DNA from: Ktedonobacteraceae bacterium
Lineage (GTDB): Bacteria; Chloroflexota; Ktedonobacteria; Ktedonobacterales; Ktedonobacteraceae
Length of the DNA: 64,000 nt
Direction of reading: 5' to 3'
Assembly: GCA_035653615.1 (NCBI GenBank)
Contig: DASRBN010000031.1
Coordinates: forward strand, 186,001-250,000
Under the pieces are notes generated by a model. That model did no database searches and had not been told where the DNA came from. It saw nothing but the letters and a program-made list of their open reading frames with translations. Position 1 is the stretch's first letter. Each line of letters begins with the position of its first letter. Below, one piece after another: positions 443 to 54,517 of the stretch. The translations under genes and the position numbers were made by a program.

Positions 443-594
443 CTGGTGATTACCTATAAGTGGGCCAGAGATGCTTCGTTGCACTCAGCATGACATGCCC
501 CACGCTGTCATGCTGAGTGCAACGAAGCATCTCTGGCGCCTTCCATGTAACTGAGCCACCTCATCTGAGTCGCCCGACTTCTGGGTAATTACCA
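443..594. mobile_element. MITE-like hairpin element, copy 1 (short form)
   Basis: This 152-bp element has imperfect terminal inverted repeats (CTGGTGATTACC at 443-454 against GGTAATTACCA at 584-594). Inside is a perfect 32-bp inverted repeat (464-495 and 506-537) around a 10-base loop. It is flanked by a perfect 9-bp direct repeat, GTATTTGTT, at 434-442 and 595-603, which reads as a target-site duplication. It carries no reading frame of its own. Related copies lie at 3434, 11203, 28049, 38543 and 54251. Confidence 0.85.
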
Positions 595-603
595 GTATTT
601 GTT

Positions 604-3433: not shown

Positions 3434-3651
3434 CTGGTGATTATCTATAAGTTGCGAGGGATTCTTCGCTGCGCTCAGAATGACACACTCGCCGGCGAGT
3501 GTGTCATTCTGAGCGCAGCGAAGAATCCCTGGTGTGAAGCCGTGCAACTGCCTCGACTTCCGCCACCCAGCCTACTTATGGGTAAACATCATGCGCCTGC
3601 GGCGCACTCCCACCGATGCAAATCGCGTGGCGGATTTTCGGAAGAATCATC
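3434..3651. mobile_element. MITE-like hairpin element, copy 2 (long form)
   Basis: About 218 bp. The core is a perfect 74-nt palindrome with no loop (3457-3493 and 3494-3530) built from the GATTCTTCG/CAGAATGAC type of arm. The right part carries an extra tail of about 65 bp (from about 3589) shared with copy 3 and ending GAATCATC, which mirrors the left-end GGTGATTA. Flanks AGAAAATGG (3425-3433) and GTAAAATGT (3652-3660) share 6 of 9 positions, possibly a worn target duplication. Confidence 0.75.
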
Positions 3652-11202: not shown

Positions 11203-11399
11203 CTGATGATTCGCTATAAGCGGGCGAGAGATGCTTCGTGGCACTCAGCATGACATGCCCCACGCTGTCATGCTGAGTGCCACGAAGCATCTCTCGCCCC
11301 TTTCATGCAGCTGAGCCGCCCGACCGCTGGGGAAACGTCATGCGCCTGCGTCGCACTCCTACTGATGAAAATCGCCTGGGGATTTTCGGAAGAATCATC
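11203..11399. mobile_element. MITE-like hairpin element, copy 3 (long form)
   Basis: About 197 bp. A perfect 34-bp inverted repeat (11222-11255 and 11266-11299) surrounds the same ten-base loop as copy 1, followed by the same tail of about 65 bp as copy 2. The ends are CTGATGATTC and GAATCATC. Flanks TTTGAAAAA (11194-11202) and GATGAAAAA (11400-11408) match at 7 of 9 positions, a probable target duplication with two changes. Confidence 0.8.
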
Positions 11400-25393: not shown

Positions 25394-27943
25394 TTAGTTC
25401 CGGTACTTCCCATCGTAATTGATAATGAAATTCAACTCCTCATCCGTAAATTCATAATGTCGTGCCAGCACACGATCAACCTCATCAATGATAGGCTTAG
25501 ACTTGCCCGGAAAGATGCATTGGATAGTGAGCCTCCCCACATCCTTAAAATTCATCTTCCGGTACTCCGAATGAGCTTGCAAATCCTGGGCGAGATCAAT
25601 CGCTAGCTTAGATAAATCGCTCCGGATAGTATGCTCCATCCTTTCGATGTCAAGCGGTAATCCCAGCACCTCGCGCATGTTCAGATTGCGGCAATCACTC
25701 CCGGTTGTGACGAACCAGTAGAACAGATTCGAGTTGAGGGAGACGAAGGCAATATTGGCGTGTTCAGATGATGCGAAGACGAGCGTCTTCAGTTCCGAGG
25801 GATGGCGGACATGGCCGTGTTCATCGAGGATTTGAGGGATAAAAGGGGTTACCTGGACATACCAGCTCATTTTGCGCGTGTAATAAACTATGTTGCTGCC
25901 TGCTTTCACGACATAATCGCCCAACCGGCGTGCCTGGCTATGTATCTTCATATGCAGAGTGCGTTCAATAGAGGAGCCATAACGCGGAATAATACCCGGC
26001 CTCACCAGGTCGGTGACTTCGATGTAGGCCAGCCGTTGAAAGAGCGATTCGCGCAGTTCGCGTCCCAATTTTATGTAGGGCGTGGAGTAGACGCGTTTCG
26101 GATGGGCAGATTTCGTGTAGAGAATGATGCAGAGCCGTGGATGAGGAATATCGAAGAGCTTGCCGCGCTGGTCGCTGAATGAGGAGATATGCAGCGATGC
26201 TTGCTCCAGCAGGATTTTCTGCAATGGCAAATAGCCGCTGGTGCAGGTTGCTGAGGATGGAACGATCATGCCAAAGCGGCCATCTCGCGCCAGTAGCGCG
26301 GAGCATCTTTCGATGGTGAGCGCGTAAAGGTTGCCGGTCGATACGGTTCGATAGTCGTTCACTTTATATGAGGCGCTGACAGTCTCATACTCCACGTAAG
26401 GTGGGTTGCCGATAATTACATCGAATCCGCCGTTTTGCATGATGCTGTAGAATTCGGTGAACCATGATAATCGCTCTGGATCTCGCTCGTACCCGACAAG
26501 TATGCCTGTTTCATTGCTATGATCGGCCAGAATATTGCCGGTATGGATATTGAAATCGATAGCCGTAAGTGACTCCACAGCTTCATCCCGCTCAATTTGA
26601 GATAGGAGTTTGAGCAGCAGGCGCAGTTTACAGAGCTCAACCGCCTCCTGCATGATATCTACTCCATACAGGTTGTTGGTGATGATGGATTTGAGGATGA
26701 AGTAGCGCCGGTTGGGATAGAACCGCATCTGCTTGAGTATGACGCGGAAGACGGAGCGTTGAGGTTCGTTCACTGTTGGATGAGCGGATTTCCCTGGCCC
26801 AGTTTGCGGGTCGCAAGCACTCAGCATAGCCTCCATCCGGGAGAGGCAGGCATCATAGAGCGGCTCAAGGACAGAAAGTGCCGCCAGCAGGAAAGCTCCA
26901 GAACCGCAGGTCGGATCAAGCACGGTGAGCTGGGCCAGGTTTTCGTAAAAAGCTAACAATAACGCCGGTTGCTCGCAATGTTCAATGATATCCTGCGCAA
27001 ATTGGGCAATATTGAGATTATTTGTCACCAACTCGTCTATAGAGCGCACCTGGCCGGACTCCAGCATACAATGAAGTTGCTCGTAATGCTTGCGGCGGGC
27101 GATGACTTCATGCCAGGTCTCACCGGGCAGCGCAAATGGCTCGCTTGCCGGTGTGTTCCACCCGGTCTGCCCAGAGGCACTCTCCGGTAAAGGAAATTCG
27201 TGTCCTTTTTTGAGCGCGGGATAGATGTAACGGTCTGGATCATTGCCAAGCAATTGCCAGATACATCCACCAGCATGAGAAGCATCGGGGAACTTTTTTT
27301 CTGCGGCATGCAAGAGGAAAGGAAGAATAGTATTCCTGGCGATATATTCAGATATATCCGTTTGCGTATAATAAGCGCCCAGTTCTTTCTGGCTGATGAG
27401 CTTTTCAAAGATATAGCTGAGCATACCTGGGGTGATCGCATTGCCGGAGCAGGTAGGAGATTCCTCGATCTGCCACTCAAACGTATCGAGGAAAGCAAAG
27501 AGCCTGGCGAAAGCCGCGTTGGGTATATCGATATTGGCGTTGCGGCGCTCTAATTCGGGTACATCGAACAGATTACTATTGAGCGCTGGGATGCTGGCAG
27601 GAAGTGTATCTCTTGATCCTGGACGCTCATTGCCGGTCAATTCATGATGGAAAAAACGTAGAAGAAAATGGCGATAGAAAGAGGCATTTTCCTGACTATT
27701 CTCGTGCATCGAAAGCAATTGATTGCGCAGATAGTTAGTATCGCGATCCAGCAAGCTTTTCTTTTGTAAGAAGTAGACGAACATGAGCCGGATCAGCATC
27801 AGGGACGCATACTGTGCTCGGTCGCTCTCAGAAGCAAAGCCCTGAATGGATTGGTGAAAAGCGCTATACTCGCTTTTGAAAAGTTTTGAGAAACGCCTGG
27901 GAAGGCGGACTACGCCAGGAGGAAAATATACTGATCCGCTCAT
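25394..27943 (-). CDS. Eco57I-like adenine DNA methyltransferase / putative type IIG protein
   Basis: An 849-residue protein. A 200-residue helical N-terminal part (LMFVYFLQKKSLLDRD, ELGAYYTQTDISEYIARNTI) precedes an N6-adenine methyltransferase core with motif I VLDPTCGSGAFLLAAL and motif IV FDVIIGNPPYVEYET; a C-terminal region of about 250 residues resembles TaqI-type target recognition (HARRLGDYV, MSWYVQVTPFIPQI, NSNLFYWFVTTGSDCRNLNMREV). I see no PD-(D/E)xK nuclease motif and no adjacent restriction, BREX or DISARM genes. It therefore looks like an orphan methyltransferase or a nuclease-less relative of type IIG enzymes. Hairpin element copy 4 sits about 105 bp before its start codon. Confidence 0.85.
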   Translation of the reverse strand: MSGSVYFPPGVVRLPRRFSKLFKSEYSAFHQSIQGFASESDRAQYASLMLIRLMFVYFLQKKSLLDRDTNYLRNQLLSMHENSQENASFYRHFLLRFFHHELTGNERPGSRDTLPASIPALNSNLFDVPELERRNANIDIPNAAFARLFAFLDTFEWQIEESPTCSGNAITPGMLSYIFEKLISQKELGAYYTQTDISEYIARNTILPFLLHAAEKKFPDASHAGGCIWQLLGNDPDRYIYPALKKGHEFPLPESASGQTGWNTPASEPFALPGETWHEVIARRKHYEQLHCMLESGQVRSIDELVTNNLNIAQFAQDIIEHCEQPALLLAFYENLAQLTVLDPTCGSGAFLLAALSVLEPLYDACLSRMEAMLSACDPQTGPGKSAHPTVNEPQRSVFRVILKQMRFYPNRRYFILKSIITNNLYGVDIMQEAVELCKLRLLLKLLSQIERDEAVESLTAIDFNIHTGNILADHSNETGILVGYERDPERLSWFTEFYSIMQNGGFDVIIGNPPYVEYETVSASYKVNDYRTVSTGNLYALTIERCSALLARDGRFGMIVPSSATCTSGYLPLQKILLEQASLHISSFSDQRGKLFDIPHPRLCIILYTKSAHPKRVYSTPYIKLGRELRESLFQRLAYIEVTDLVRPGIIPRYGSSIERTLHMKIHSQARRLGDYVVKAGSNIVYYTRKMSWYVQVTPFIPQILDEHGHVRHPSELKTLVFASSEHANIAFVSLNSNLFYWFVTTGSDCRNLNMREVLGLPLDIERMEHTIRSDLSKLAIDLAQDLQAHSEYRKMNFKDVGRLTIQCIFPGKSKPIIDEVDRVLARHYEFTDEELNFIINYDGKYRN

Positions 27944-28048
27944 ATCAACCGCATTCGGTCCAAAAATTTCCTATAGCCATCAAAAATAGAGAGATATTTG
28001 TGCTAAGATGCCGAGCTAATTGTAACAAGGGCGTCAAGGCGGGGAAAA

Positions 28049-28186
28049 CTGGTGTTTCCCTATAAGTGGGCGAGAGATGCTTCGCTGCACTCAGCATGAC
28101 AGGGCGGGGCATGTCATGCTGAGTGCAGCGAAGCATCTCTCGCCCCTTTCATGCAGCTGAGCCGACGGACTGCTGGGGAATCACCA
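28049..28186. mobile_element. MITE-like hairpin element, copy 4 (short form)
   Basis: A 138-bp element with ends CTGGTGTTTCCC and GGGGAATCACCA, a perfect 34-bp inverted repeat (28068-28101, 28112-28145) and a ten-base loop. It is flanked by a perfect 9-bp direct repeat CGGGGAAAA at 28040-28048 and 28187-28195. It separates the divergent methyltransferase and hen1 genes. Confidence 0.87.
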
Positions 28187-28216
28187 CGGGGAAAAGTAGG
28201 AGGCAGAGGCGATGTA

Positions 28217-28245
28217 TTGTAAATAGAACCCAGCAATGTTACAAT
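28217..28245 (+). promoter_or_regulatory. Promoter of hen1-pnkp
   Basis: TTGTAA (28217-28222), 17 bp, TACAAT (28240-28245), just downstream of hairpin element copy 4 and about 31 bp before the hen1 start codon. Confidence 0.65.
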
Positions 28246-28276
28246 GCCTCCACGACAAAGCCTCCTGGGGAGATAT

Positions 28277-29284
28277 ATGTTACTGACGATCACCACAACT
28301 TATCAACCGGCTACTGATCTGGGTTACTTGCTGCATAAAAATCCGGCTAGAGTGCAATCATTCGCGCTTTCGTTCGGCAAGGCTCATGTATTCTATCCAG
28401 AGGTCAGTGACGAATGCTGTACTGCGGCATTGCTGCTGGATGTCGATCCGGTGCAGTTAGTATGCGGTTCGCATGGCGCGGCTTCGCTGGAGCAGTATGT
28501 CAATGACCGCCCTTATGTGGCTTCCTCGTTTCTCAGTGTCGCCATTGCGCAGGTCTATGGAACGGCTCTGAATGGGCATAGTGCAGCTCGCCAGGGACTG
28601 GCCGAAATGGACATTCCTTTGCGGGCGAAGATTGCCGTCTTGCCATGTCGTGGTGGAGAAGGCCTCCTCAAGCGTCTCTTTGAACCATTGGGTTATACGG
28701 TAACCGCCATGCCTCATATGCTGGATGAAATCTATCCTGAATGGGGCATGAGCATTTATTACACGGTCACCCTGGAAGCCAGTTGTCGTTTGCGTGATCT
28801 TTTGACGCATCTCTATGTGCTTGTTCCGGTGCTGGATGATGACAAGCACTATTGGATAGGGGATGATGAGGTCGAAAAATTGTTGCGCCGGGGCAAGGGA
28901 TGGCTAGAAACTCACCCGGAACGCGAACAGATCGCCTATCGCTATCTGAAGCACAAGCGCAGTTTGGCGCGCGATGCCATCGCACGCTTAACGGCTGAGG
29001 ATGCTCCTGATGAGGATACGGCGGAAAAATTTGCCCGACCCGCAACGGTGATAATAACGACGCCCAACTCGGAATATAATGTCAAGTTTGAGACATTGCC
29101 CACCGGCCAGTTTCGCCACAAGGATCATCGTTTCGAATGGACGCGCCAGGAATTTCAGGCATGGGCGAATACAGTTGCAGAACGGTTCAATTATTCTGTG
29201 CGTTTCCTTCCTGTAGGGTCAGAGGATTCGCTGGTTGGTGCGCCTTCGCAGATGGCGATTTTCTCGCGTGAGATAGTCAATTGA
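28277..29284 (+). CDS. hen1: Hen1 RNA 3'-terminal ribose methyltransferase, internally deleted
   Basis: A 335-residue protein where bacterial Hen1 normally has about 460-470. Residues 1-248 match the bacterial Hen1 N-terminal domain (MLLTITTTYQPATDLGYLLHKNP start), which in characterised systems binds Pnkp and activates its ligase. At residues 249-250 (base about 29021) the sequence jumps straight from the linker ARLTAEDAPDED to the last part of the methyltransferase, EKFARPATVIITTPNSEYN and RHKDHRFEWTRQEF. The SAM-binding motif I and the metal-binding ExxEH segment expected between them, roughly 120-130 residues, are absent, in frame. Methylation should be lost while Pnkp activation could remain. 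Start ATG 28277 has GGGGAG upstream. Pnkp follows after 78 bp. Confidence 0.88.
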   Translation: MLLTITTTYQPATDLGYLLHKNPARVQSFALSFGKAHVFYPEVSDECCTAALLLDVDPVQLVCGSHGAASLEQYVNDRPYVASSFLSVAIAQVYGTALNGHSAARQGLAEMDIPLRAKIAVLPCRGGEGLLKRLFEPLGYTVTAMPHMLDEIYPEWGMSIYYTVTLEASCRLRDLLTHLYVLVPVLDDDKHYWIGDDEVEKLLRRGKGWLETHPEREQIAYRYLKHKRSLARDAIARLTAEDAPDEDTAEKFARPATVIITTPNSEYNVKFETLPTGQFRHKDHRFEWTRQEFQAWANTVAERFNYSVRFLPVGSEDSLVGAPSQMAIFSREIVN

Positions 29285-29362
29285 TACATGCTAAAAGATA
29301 AGCTGGTTGGACAAAGAAATCTTAAATGATCTGCTATTGTGGTTAAGGATGCGTTACCTGTC

Positions 29363-31921
29363 ATGAACATTACGATTCCTGAGCTTTCACTGATGATCCT
29401 CATCGGGCCTTCAGGTTCCGGCAAGTCAACTTTTGCCCATAAACACTTTAAAAGCACCGAGATCCTCTCATCGGATTTTTGTAGAGGCCTGGTCTCGGAT
29501 GACGAAAATGACCAGAGTGCCACAAAGGATGCCTTTGAGGTGCTGCACTTCGTTGCCGCTAAGCGATTGGGTGCCGGAAAATTGACAGTGATTGATGCGA
29601 CGAACGTTCAGCAGGAGGCCCGTAAACCTTTGCTTGCGCTGGCTCGCGAGTATCATTGTTTGCCTGTAGCAATCGTGTTTAACCTGCCTGAGAAACTGTG
29701 CCAGGAGCGTAACCGGTATCGCTCTGACCGCGATTTTGGGCCGCATGTTGTGCGCCAGCAGACGATGCAGTTGCGGCGTTCTCTGCATGGCCTGGAACGT
29801 GAGGGTTTCAGCAATGTCTTTGTCCTTTCCTCACCGGAGCAGATTGATAGCGTCAAGATTGTGCGACAACCATTATGGAGCAATTTGAAGCATGAACATG
29901 GTCCTTTCGATATTATCGGTGATGTCCATGGGTGCTTCGATGAACTACAGACGCTATTGAAGCAACTTGGTTATGAGATGCGGGAAGACGAGCAAAAATT
30001 CTATGTGCATCATCCTGCGAACCGGAAAGCTCTATTCCTGGGCGACCTGGTTGATCGCGGGCCAGATATCCCTGGAGTACTGCGCCTGGTCATGGACATG
30101 GTAGAGGCTGGCGATGCGCTTTGTATACCGGGCAATCACGACGTGAAATTGTTACGCAAGCTCAAGGGCAGAGATGTAAAACTCACACATGGCCTTGCCG
30201 CCTCTATCGAACAGTTGGAGAAGGAGCCGGCGGAGTTTCGCGAGAGGGTTGCGCGGTTTATCGATGGCCTGGTCAGCCATTACGTGCTTGATAATGGGAA
30301 GCTGGTTGTCGCTCACGCCGGTTTGAAGGAATCGATGCAGGGACGCGCTTCCCGCGCAGTACGCGAATTTGCTCTTTATGGTGAAACGACAGGCGAAACC
30401 GACGAATTTGGCATGCCCATTCGCTACAATTGGGCGGCTGAATATCGTGGCAAAGCAATGGTTGTCTATGGTCATACACCGGTACCGGAGGCCGAGTGGC
30501 TGAATAACACTATCAATATTGACACCGGCTGTGTCTTCGGCGGCAAACTGACGGCGCTGCGCTATCCTGAAAGAGAATTGGTGTCTGTTCCTGCTGCCCG
30601 TGTCTATTGGGAGTCGGCAAAACCGTTTCTCTCCGTTGTAGATCAAGCACCTATTCTTACGGCGCAACAACAGAACGATGATGTGCTGGATATGGAGGAT
30701 GTATCCGGCAAACGCATCATTTCGACGCGCTTGCAGCAGCATATCACCATTCAGGAGGAGAATGCTATTGCTGCCCTGGAGGTCATGAGCCGGTTCGCGG
30801 CAAATCCCAGGTGGCTCATCTATCTTCCTCCAACGATGTCTCCTTCCGAGACGAGCAGTGAGCCTGGATTGCTCGAACATCCGGCGGAGGCGTTTGCCTA
30901 TTATCGTCATGAAGGGGTGCCGAAAGTTGTTTGCGAAGAGAAGCATATGGGTTCGCGCGCGGTGGTGATCGTCTGCCGAGATGAGGAGGCCGCGCGCAAG
31001 CATTTCGGTGTAACGGGTGAAGGCATCGGAATTTGCTATACCCGTACCGGTAGGCGTTTCTTCGACGATGCGACACTCGAAGTGGAGATGCTTGCACGAG
31101 TTCGTTCTGCTCTGGATGCCGTTGATTTCTGGAAGCGGTTTTCAACCGGATGGGTGTGCATGGACTGCGAACTGATGCCCTGGTCGGTTAAGGCCCAGGC
31201 GCTGCTGCTCCAGCAGTATGCCTCCGTCGGCGCTGCCGCTCGTGCCGCGATCGCTGGTGCGGTGGCGAGCCTCGAACTGGCGGCAGAACAGGGCCGCGAT
31301 GTTGAGGAATTGCTGGCGACCTATCGCAACAAGCAAAAGCTCGTCACACAGTATGTTCATGCCTATCGACAGTATTGCTGGCCCGTACATGCTGTGACCG
31401 ACCTCAAACTTGCCCCGTTTCACCTGCTGGCGACTCAGGGCAAAGTTTATACGAACAAGGATCACGCCTGGCATATGGAGACGCTTGCCGAGATCTGCCG
31501 TGCTGATGAAGCGCTGCTGCTCGCTACGCCATTCAAAATTGTGGATGTCACCGATGCGGCAAGCATTGAAGAGGGCATTGCCTGGTGGCGGGAGCTGACC
31601 GGGCGCGGCGGCGAAGGAATGGTGGTCAAGCCGCTGGATTTCATCATAAGAGGAAAACGAGGAATCGTACAGCCCACCCTCAAATGCCGCGGGCCGGAAT
31701 ACCTCCGCATCATCTATGGGCCTGAGTACAGCATTCCCCAGAATCTGGAACAACTGCGCAAACGCGGATTAGGCGCGAAACGTTCGCTAGCCTTGCGCGA
31801 GTTTTCCCTTGGCGTTGAGGCCCTGGAGCGTTTTGTGCGCGGAGAACCCCTGCGCCGAGTGCATGAGTGCGTTTTTGGCGTGCTGGCGCTTGAAAGTGAG
31901 CCTGTTGACCCACGGCTGTAA
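29363..31921 (+). CDS. pnkp: Polynucleotide kinase-phosphatase-ligase Pnkp
   Basis: An 852-residue RNA end-healing and sealing enzyme with all three modules. Kinase: P-loop GPSGSGKST (about 15-23) and the DATNVQQEARKPL region. Phosphatase (about 175-430): metallophosphoesterase motifs DIIGDVHGCFDEL, LGDLVDRGPD, GNHDVK and VYGHTP. Ligase/adenylyltransferase (about 470-850): nucleotide-binding Lys in EEKHMGSRAV, with GEGMVVKPLD and a C-terminal QPTLKCRGPEYLRIIYG. In known systems it repairs tRNAs cut by ribotoxins and needs Hen1 for ligation. ATG 29363 gives the expected N-terminus; GTG 29339 is an alternative with AAGGA only in that leader. Confidence 0.95.
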   Translation: MNITIPELSLMILIGPSGSGKSTFAHKHFKSTEILSSDFCRGLVSDDENDQSATKDAFEVLHFVAAKRLGAGKLTVIDATNVQQEARKPLLALAREYHCLPVAIVFNLPEKLCQERNRYRSDRDFGPHVVRQQTMQLRRSLHGLEREGFSNVFVLSSPEQIDSVKIVRQPLWSNLKHEHGPFDIIGDVHGCFDELQTLLKQLGYEMREDEQKFYVHHPANRKALFLGDLVDRGPDIPGVLRLVMDMVEAGDALCIPGNHDVKLLRKLKGRDVKLTHGLAASIEQLEKEPAEFRERVARFIDGLVSHYVLDNGKLVVAHAGLKESMQGRASRAVREFALYGETTGETDEFGMPIRYNWAAEYRGKAMVVYGHTPVPEAEWLNNTINIDTGCVFGGKLTALRYPERELVSVPAARVYWESAKPFLSVVDQAPILTAQQQNDDVLDMEDVSGKRIISTRLQQHITIQEENAIAALEVMSRFAANPRWLIYLPPTMSPSETSSEPGLLEHPAEAFAYYRHEGVPKVVCEEKHMGSRAVVIVCRDEEAARKHFGVTGEGIGICYTRTGRRFFDDATLEVEMLARVRSALDAVDFWKRFSTGWVCMDCELMPWSVKAQALLLQQYASVGAAARAAIAGAVASLELAAEQGRDVEELLATYRNKQKLVTQYVHAYRQYCWPVHAVTDLKLAPFHLLATQGKVYTNKDHAWHMETLAEICRADEALLLATPFKIVDVTDAASIEEGIAWWRELTGRGGEGMVVKPLDFIIRGKRGIVQPTLKCRGPEYLRIIYGPEYSIPQNLEQLRKRGLGAKRSLALREFSLGVEALERFVRGEPLRRVHECVFGVLALESEPVDPRL

Positions 31922-38542: not shown

Positions 38543-38632
38543 CCTGTCATGCTGAGCGCAGCGAAGCATCTCTGGTGCCGAGTGATTCGTGTGTCGCGAC
38601 CAGAGATGCTTCGCTGCGCTCAGCATGACAGG
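38543..38632. mobile_element. Inside-out relative of the hairpin element, copy 5
   Basis: A perfect 34-bp inverted repeat (38543-38576, 38599-38632) with a 22-base centre. The arm sequence is that of the other copies but its polarity is reversed: TGTCATGC is outermost and GATGCTTCG faces the centre. The element ends of the other copies are missing. It lies between the alpha/beta hydrolase and the stop of the chimeric MFS gene. Confidence 0.7.
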
Positions 38633-54250: not shown

Positions 54251-54420
54251 CTGATGATTATCCATAATGTGACGAGGGATTCTTCGCTTTACTCAGAATG
54301 ACAGGCCCAGGGGCCACAATGGCCCCTGGGCCTGTCATTCTGAGTAAAGCGAAGAATCCCTCGCGTGTCCGTCTAGCCGCCCCGCCTTGCATTACCTGGC
54401 CCATGTATGAGGAATTACCA
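54251..54420. mobile_element. MITE-like hairpin element, copy 6
   Basis: About 170 bp with ends CTGATGATTATCC and GGAATTACCA. The core is an uninterrupted 44-bp inverted repeat (54273-54316, 54320-54363) with only a three-base loop, the longest stem in the window. The arm is the GATTCTTCG/CAGAATGAC type with an AGGCCCAGGGGCCA-like extension. No matching 9-bp flanks are seen (ATCAGGACG, GTCGGATAG). Confidence 0.78.
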
Positions 54421-54517
54421 GTCGGATAGATGAATTGATGAAAGTATTTTGATGAGGCAAATATAATATAGGCAAATGTACCCGCTGTTGATCCGATTCA
54501 TAGCCAGGGTACGAGGA

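Follow-up and report, generated by a model that had tools for sequence, protein, structure and literature searches.

Inverted REP-like units lie in a new MITE in a Ktedonobacteraceae genome, with hairpin arms that agree within copies and differ between them

Results and Discussion

Features of the locus

The window (the whole stretch of 64,000 nucleotides analysed) belongs to a 6.59 Mb draft genome of a Ktedonobacteraceae bacterium in 44 contigs. An Eco57I-type methylase gene (25394-27943, minus strand) lies divergent from a Hen1/Pnkp pair of RNA-repair genes (Hen1_L followed by a kinase-phosphatase-ligase; 28244-31921, plus strand) that starts beside the element at 28049-28187. Six hairpins occur in the window, each made of two inverted copies of a 26-nt unit. 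Two classes of pairs are distinguished by the orientation of the units. In class A the tag ends (TGACA) face inward and the spacer is mostly 4-34 nt long and often self-complementary; in class B the tag ends face outward and the spacer is mostly 13-18 or 30-34 nt long and never self-complementary at the 80% level. The six elements are as follows.

443-595, plus strand: class A MITE, TSD TATTTGTT (8/8); perfect arms 464-495/506-537 (32 nt, 100%)
3434-3592, plus strand: class A MITE, eroded ends (TSD 4/8); perfect arms 3457-3493/3494-3530 (37 nt, 100%)
11203-11341, plus strand: class A MITE, eroded right end, by sibling alignment; perfect arms 11222-11255/11266-11299 (34 nt, 100%)
28049-28187, plus strand: class A MITE, 139 bp, TIR box at each end, 8-bp TSD, full-length alignment with 7 siblings; holds the reported hairpin, perfect arms 28068-28101/28112-28145 (34 nt, 100%)
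38543-38632, no strand: class B pair, outward-facing units, 34-nt spacer, convergent genes either side; arms 38543-38581/38594-38632 (39 nt, 95%: 34 bp exact, two mismatches further out)
54251-54421, plus strand: class A MITE (TSD 4/8), haplotype TTCGCTTTACTC on both arms; perfect arms 54273-54316/54320-54363 (44 nt, 100%)

An earlier note on this DNA had reported that the arm centres vary between copies while the two arms of each copy are exact complements over 32 to 44 bp. The variants that it quoted are correct, and five of the six hairpins are perfect. The exception is the copy at 38543, exact for 34 bp with two mismatches beyond; its units are oriented opposite to those of the other five, and it represents another type of pair. 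The DNA fold of 28049-28187 has a computed energy of -59.9 kcal/mol, compared with -23.5 for shuffled versions (z = -12.9); the hairpin is therefore not a product of chance.

A new MITE around the class A hairpins

Class A hairpins are the interior of a newly recognised MITE with TIRs CTGGTGATTNCCYAYAAGT.../CTGGTGATT... and an 8-bp TSD. The parts of the copy that holds the reported hairpin are given below.

28041-28048, no strand: TSD, left copy GGGGAAAA, 8/8 match with 28188-28195
28049-28067, plus strand: left (short-side) TIR CTGGTGTTTCCCTATAAGT, from the box search, 1 mismatch to CTGGTGATTNCCNANAAGT
28068-28101, plus strand: hairpin arm 1, 100% complementary to 28112-28145; 26-nt REP-like unit at 28076-28101
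28102-28111, no strand: spacer gggcggggca, inverted relative to siblings (best sibling score 8 of 10 inverted, negative forward; 0/20000 shuffles)
28112-28145, minus strand: hairpin arm 2, 100% complementary to arm 1; 26-nt unit at 28112-28137 on the minus strand
28146-28168, plus strand: asymmetric long-side module CTTTCATGCAGCTGAGCCGACGG, common to siblings by alignment
28169-28187, minus strand: right TIR, 2 mismatches to the TIR consensus
28188-28195, no strand: TSD, right copy GGGGAAAA, 8/8 match with the left copy

Reading outward from a class A hairpin, the motif ACTTMTRGGGAATCACCAG is reached on one or both sides. A TIR box lies no more than 110 nt away on at least one side in 44 of the 66 class A pairs (random flanks: 1.3%), and 23 pairs have one on both sides, in outward inverted orientation. 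Direct repeats of 8 bp match at 7/8 or 8/8 in 16 of these 23 elements, compared with 1.2% in the mismatched-end control. The paired TIR boxes and the direct repeats therefore identify the hairpin as the interior of a short (117-200 bp), non-coding MITE that is present in dozens of copies. A 58-bp element at C4:199873-199930 of the genome has the same TIRs and an 8-bp TSD (ACCTTTAC), with no REP hairpin. No autonomous IS with these TIRs explains the outward TIR pairs at 0.7-3 kb among 100 of 114 places listed.

A search of 28 other genomes of the family with the TIR pattern gave, among the listed matches, convincing boxes in only two, G015 and G019. In G015, from a sister genus, the listed matches show GATCC...GGATG on both arms in four inward pairs, one of them a private variant, and TIR boxes adjoining such pairs on contigs C40 and C259. 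At C259:591-745 the boxes bracket an inward pair (units 618-643 and 655-680, GATCC...GGATG on both arms), and the same MITE, with another arm haplotype, is therefore present in the sister genus. The element resembles the ERIC and NEMIS MITEs (named in PMC3733652) in being non-coding, 100-200 bp long and intergenic, with TIRs, target duplication and strong secondary structure. It differs from them in its own TIR sequence and 8-bp TSD and in an interior made of two REP-like units with homogenised arms; its autonomous partner was not found.

The 26-nt REP-like unit

Strict copies of the unit, GATTCTTCGCTGCGCTCAGAATGACA and variants, number 248 + 251 = 499 genome-wide, and the reversed control pattern gives 0. 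Allowing up to 6 mismatches, a search of 2.81 Mb out of the 6.59 Mb finds 344 units; shuffling the consensus left no match in the first 0.86 Mb sample. Each arm unit is itself an imperfect hairpin, TGTC-ATTCTGAG-CGCAG-CGAAGAAT-C, whose first stem pairs are AT/AT and whose pairs 6-16 and 7-15 are not Watson-Crick. The third stem pair (position 3-19) covaries strongly, as T-A, C-G and G-C, with 62 paired versus 41 expected among 90 distinct cross-phylum units. The TGTC tag is present in 314 of the 344 host units and 197 of 234 in other phyla. The pattern GATNCTTCGCTNCGCTCAGNATGACA recurs verbatim on at least 119 stretches from many bacterial phyla; by our estimate, chance alone would give about 0.03 matches to its 22 fixed bases in both strands of 257 Gb. 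Its carriers, among the matches listed, include Acidobacteria, Bacteroidota, Bacillota (Lachnospiraceae), Chloroflexota, Nitrospirota, Nitrospinota, Planctomycetota, Verrucomicrobiota, Patescibacteria and others.

The REP-like unit is most similar to the CGTC-tagged REPs (Di Nocera et al. 2013, PMC3733652), which carry a CGTC, TGTC or CCTC tag, a stem of 8-9 bp, a loop of 4-5 nt and, in most families, an unpaired CCA tail. Both are short palindromic units with a TGTC/CGTC tag, AT in the first two stem pairs, a 5-nt loop, inverted dimers (homodimers and heterodimers) and no dedicated transposase nearby. Unlike those REPs, the present unit has a stem broken by two non-Watson-Crick pairs and a tail ending in CT or CC (AATCT in 169/344, AATCC in 108/344) rather than CCA; it also occurs in many phyla beyond their five and is nested in a TIR/TSD MITE. 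A literature search for the exact unit sequences found no paper. A known RNA family was dismissed after an Rfam search with no match except tRNA-Glu.

REPINs mobilised by RAYTs (PMC3116915) likewise consist of two inverted REP units that act as one high-copy element, but no RAYT gene was found in the present host genome, and the marks of mobility here are TIRs with an 8-bp TSD. That RAYT/IS200 mobilises the unit was considered and rejected: the sole Y1_Tnp of the host sits beside what reads as TnpB, with no units there, and in unit-bearing genomes 28 of 30 PF01797 matches have no unit in their flanks (up to 1.5 kb). The two others, both weak, have a unit 0.5-1.2 kb away (matches in 13 unit-bearing genomes). 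That Y1_Tnp is the IS200-type TnpA of an IS605-like element (C5:73715-77065), which has an end hairpin of its own and is unrelated to the unit.

Arm identity differs between the two classes

Mismatches within and between copies were counted in the 2.81 Mb, of which 0.4 Mb had been picked for holding certain variants or TIR boxes, not for arm agreement. Identical arms are found in 55 of 66 class A pairs, and the mean number of differences is 0.288 versus 2.396 when partners are shuffled (minimum of 5000 shuffles 1.879); the unselected 2.41 Mb shows the same contrast (0.255 versus 2.09). Class A pairs with spacers of at most 12 nt match best, 23 of 25 being identical. Class B arms are identical in 27 of 51 pairs, with 0.784 differences versus 1.490 shuffled, and same-strand tandem neighbours have 2.194 versus 3.783. 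The ratio of within to shuffled is thus 0.12 for class A, 0.53 for class B and 0.58 for tandem neighbours; given how close the last two are, class B arms are no better matched than ordinary neighbours. Deviations from the consensus are shared by both arms in 97 cases and unshared in 19 in class A, compared with 21 and 40 in class B (Fisher p ~1e-10). Taken over the 2.81 Mb, the count of arm mismatches that the earlier note had called for bears out its observation strongly for class A and not for class B. TIRs and TSDs were also sought for class B; the outward flanks have motifs in common, but no clear TIR emerged.

Pairs in other phyla differ almost as much within as when shuffled, both class A-like (5.7 versus 6.0, n=7) and class B-like (3.7 versus 4.1, n=33). 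The units of one such pair are mostly unlike, yet each often keeps its own stem (GATCC...GGATG beside GATTC...GAATG). Homogenisation as a trait of the whole repeat family is ruled out by class B and by these cross-phylum pairs.

Age, paired changes and spacer inversion

Identical arms could simply mark recent birth, each palindrome having arisen when one unit was duplicated in a single fold-back event, with no time since to diverge. Single units are indeed common (111 in the 2.81 Mb lie outside inverted pairs), 9 of 15 class A haplotypes are found outside class A pairs too, and the self-complementary spacers resemble fold-back products. However, other parts of sibling elements have diverged. 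In the 23 elements with both TIRs, the left and right TIRs differ at 30% of 19 sites, as do TIRs of different elements (the boxes were picked by similarity, which bounds this figure), whereas the arms of the same elements differ by 0.33% within and 9.5% between elements. Youth is therefore not the reason for arm identity. Siblings with the same asymmetric long-side module differ on both arms, so the changes entered existing palindromes, and recent birth is in our judgement a very improbable explanation.

Pairing between class A arms is 94-100% in the unit and drops almost to background (~20-40%) at 9 nt and more beyond its outer edge. Inward of the unit, the spacer arms of 24 elements whose spacers measure 30-34 nt pair at 79-88% at positions 9-13 from the unit, where agreement between elements is only 26-55%. 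The clearest record of change comes from an eight-member class A subfamily, namely 28049-28187 and seven siblings with the asymmetric long-side module CTTTCATGCAGCTGAGCC. In its alignment both partners have changed in 11 of 34 arm pairs, and there is no pair with a change in just one partner. Of 238 cells, 237 (99.6%) are paired; shifting one arm by 1-3 columns lowers this to ~30-44%. The paired changes include G-C to T-A, T-A to G-C and G-C to C-G, which have no route through a G-T wobble. Across class A, no fewer than 14 paired steps, 8 of which are transversions, are required to account for the 15 both-arm haplotypes. Five elements carry GATTC...GCATG on both arms, so that the stem of the unit itself is broken and arm identity is kept. 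Among the first 100 of 127 places listed in a whole-genome scan, TTCGCTTTACTCAG is confined to the arm pair at 54273-54363 and TTCGTGGCACTCAG to pairs; haplotype TTCGCTTTACTC is found, among the listed places, only on both arms of the 54251-54421 element.

Some spacers are inverted. When the element ends are used to set orientation, the 28102-28111 spacer scores 6-8 inverted and -2 to -5 forward against its six closest siblings, and none of 20000 shuffles does as well. Two of nine members of the short-spacer subfamily have an inverted spacer (28102-28111 and the copy on contig C37), and the 32-nt spacer of C31:105072 is the exact reverse complement of that of C19:239527, both oriented by their flanks.

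Gene context and selection on RNA or DNA structure

The earlier note had offered strong selection for a paired RNA as one explanation, which presumes that the hairpin is transcribed and that selection favours compensatory mutations. As RNA, so long and perfect a stem would have great stability. Convergent gene gaps hold relatively many class B pairs (10 convergent and 8 divergent versus a background of 111/264, p = 0.033, in the 2.41 Mb), and T-runs occur in roughly one in six of the class B flanks; these pairs might serve as terminators or at mRNA ends. Arm identity is highest in class A, however: the arms are identical in 13 of 14 class A copies between divergent genes versus 6 of 10 class B copies between convergent genes (genes were called by a simple script, and single orientation assignments are uncertain). 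Class A copies are spread over divergent, tandem and convergent gene gaps much like other intergenic regions. Consensus promoter matches beside them number 10 outward and 0 inward, all pointing away from the hairpin. No one-sided wobble state is seen in 238 cells with 20 double changes, and most paired steps are transversions that do not pass through G-U. Because of this gene context, the outward promoters, the missing one-sided states and the transversions, we find selection on a paired RNA quite unlikely for the class as a whole; it could apply to single copies.

Selection might act on DNA instead. If only perfect cruciforms or hairpins were bound or mobilised, only perfect copies would spread; class A is mobile, and some transposases recognise REP-type units as hairpins (PMC8266576). 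Such a filter cannot keep arms perfect after insertion, though, and the TIRs are ~30% diverged compared with 0.33% for the arms. In addition, the C4:199873-199930 element has TIRs and a TSD without any hairpin, and the genomes examined show no IS200/RAYT gene next to units. A transposition filter is thus an unlikely source of the pattern.

Template switching as the probable copying step

Arm homogenisation in class A is probably the work of template switching (quasipalindrome correction) at replication forks. Homogenisation of arms and inversion of spacers by this route are established (PMC8604942, PMC8794818), and their combination is the signature of polymerase template switching between inverted repeats (PMC8604942). 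A fork could stall at class A arms because they lie next to each other and can pair with almost no loop; one arm would fold back and serve as template for the other, in an intra- or intermolecular switch. A new mutation in one arm would either be lost or spread to its partner. Each copy would thus keep matching arms as the copies diverge from one another, and the spacer would at times be flipped by intermolecular switches. Template switching of this kind may well be operating still.

Known cases of quasipalindrome correction (PMC8604942, PMC8794818) share with the present one the inverted spacers and the transversion changes and, probably, the conversion of imperfect repeat arms to identity, including multi-base changes. 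They differ in having been inferred at single loci or RNA genes, whereas here the palindromes are mobile, multi-copy and in one genome, with the TIRs as an internal control. No copying mechanism was offered for the homodimers seen in CGTC-tagged REPs (PMC3733652). Three points stand against template switching: class B pairs (13-18 nt spacers, 26-nt arms) could fold too, yet show only neighbour-like similarity; inward pairs of the 26-nt unit in other phyla (only 7 found) are not homogenised; and transposition passes on part of the arm identity. Arm-to-arm copying could also be part of MITE movement, with the second arm of a single-stranded hairpin resynthesised on the first, so that each jump would reset the arms and might flip the spacer; we give this variant little credence.

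Arm-to-arm conversion through a cruciform or hairpin, the other explanation in the earlier note, is thus the best-supported reading for inward-facing pairs, and it extends neither to class B nor to the pairs in other phyla. Its evidence is the paired changes in one MITE subfamily without one-sided intermediates, the frequent transversions, the inversion of some spacers and TIRs that are not homogenised. The genome keeps many long perfect palindromes. SbcD was looked for genome-wide in relation to this tolerance, and the best match reached 45 bits against a family cut-off of 77.65.

Conclusions

The copying mechanism is already known; the MITE is new and is a good natural test set for it. Compensatory change in hairpins is routinely taken as proof of selection on RNA structure. 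In this genome it is class A, seemingly the class least likely to be transcribed, that has strong paired change, seen in dozens of copies with built-in controls, internal (the TIRs of the same elements) and external (class B and other phyla). This is a caution against reading covariation in REP or MITE hairpins as a sign of RNA function. The class A set could reveal the rate at which replication copies one arm onto the other, and with which spacer geometry it does so.
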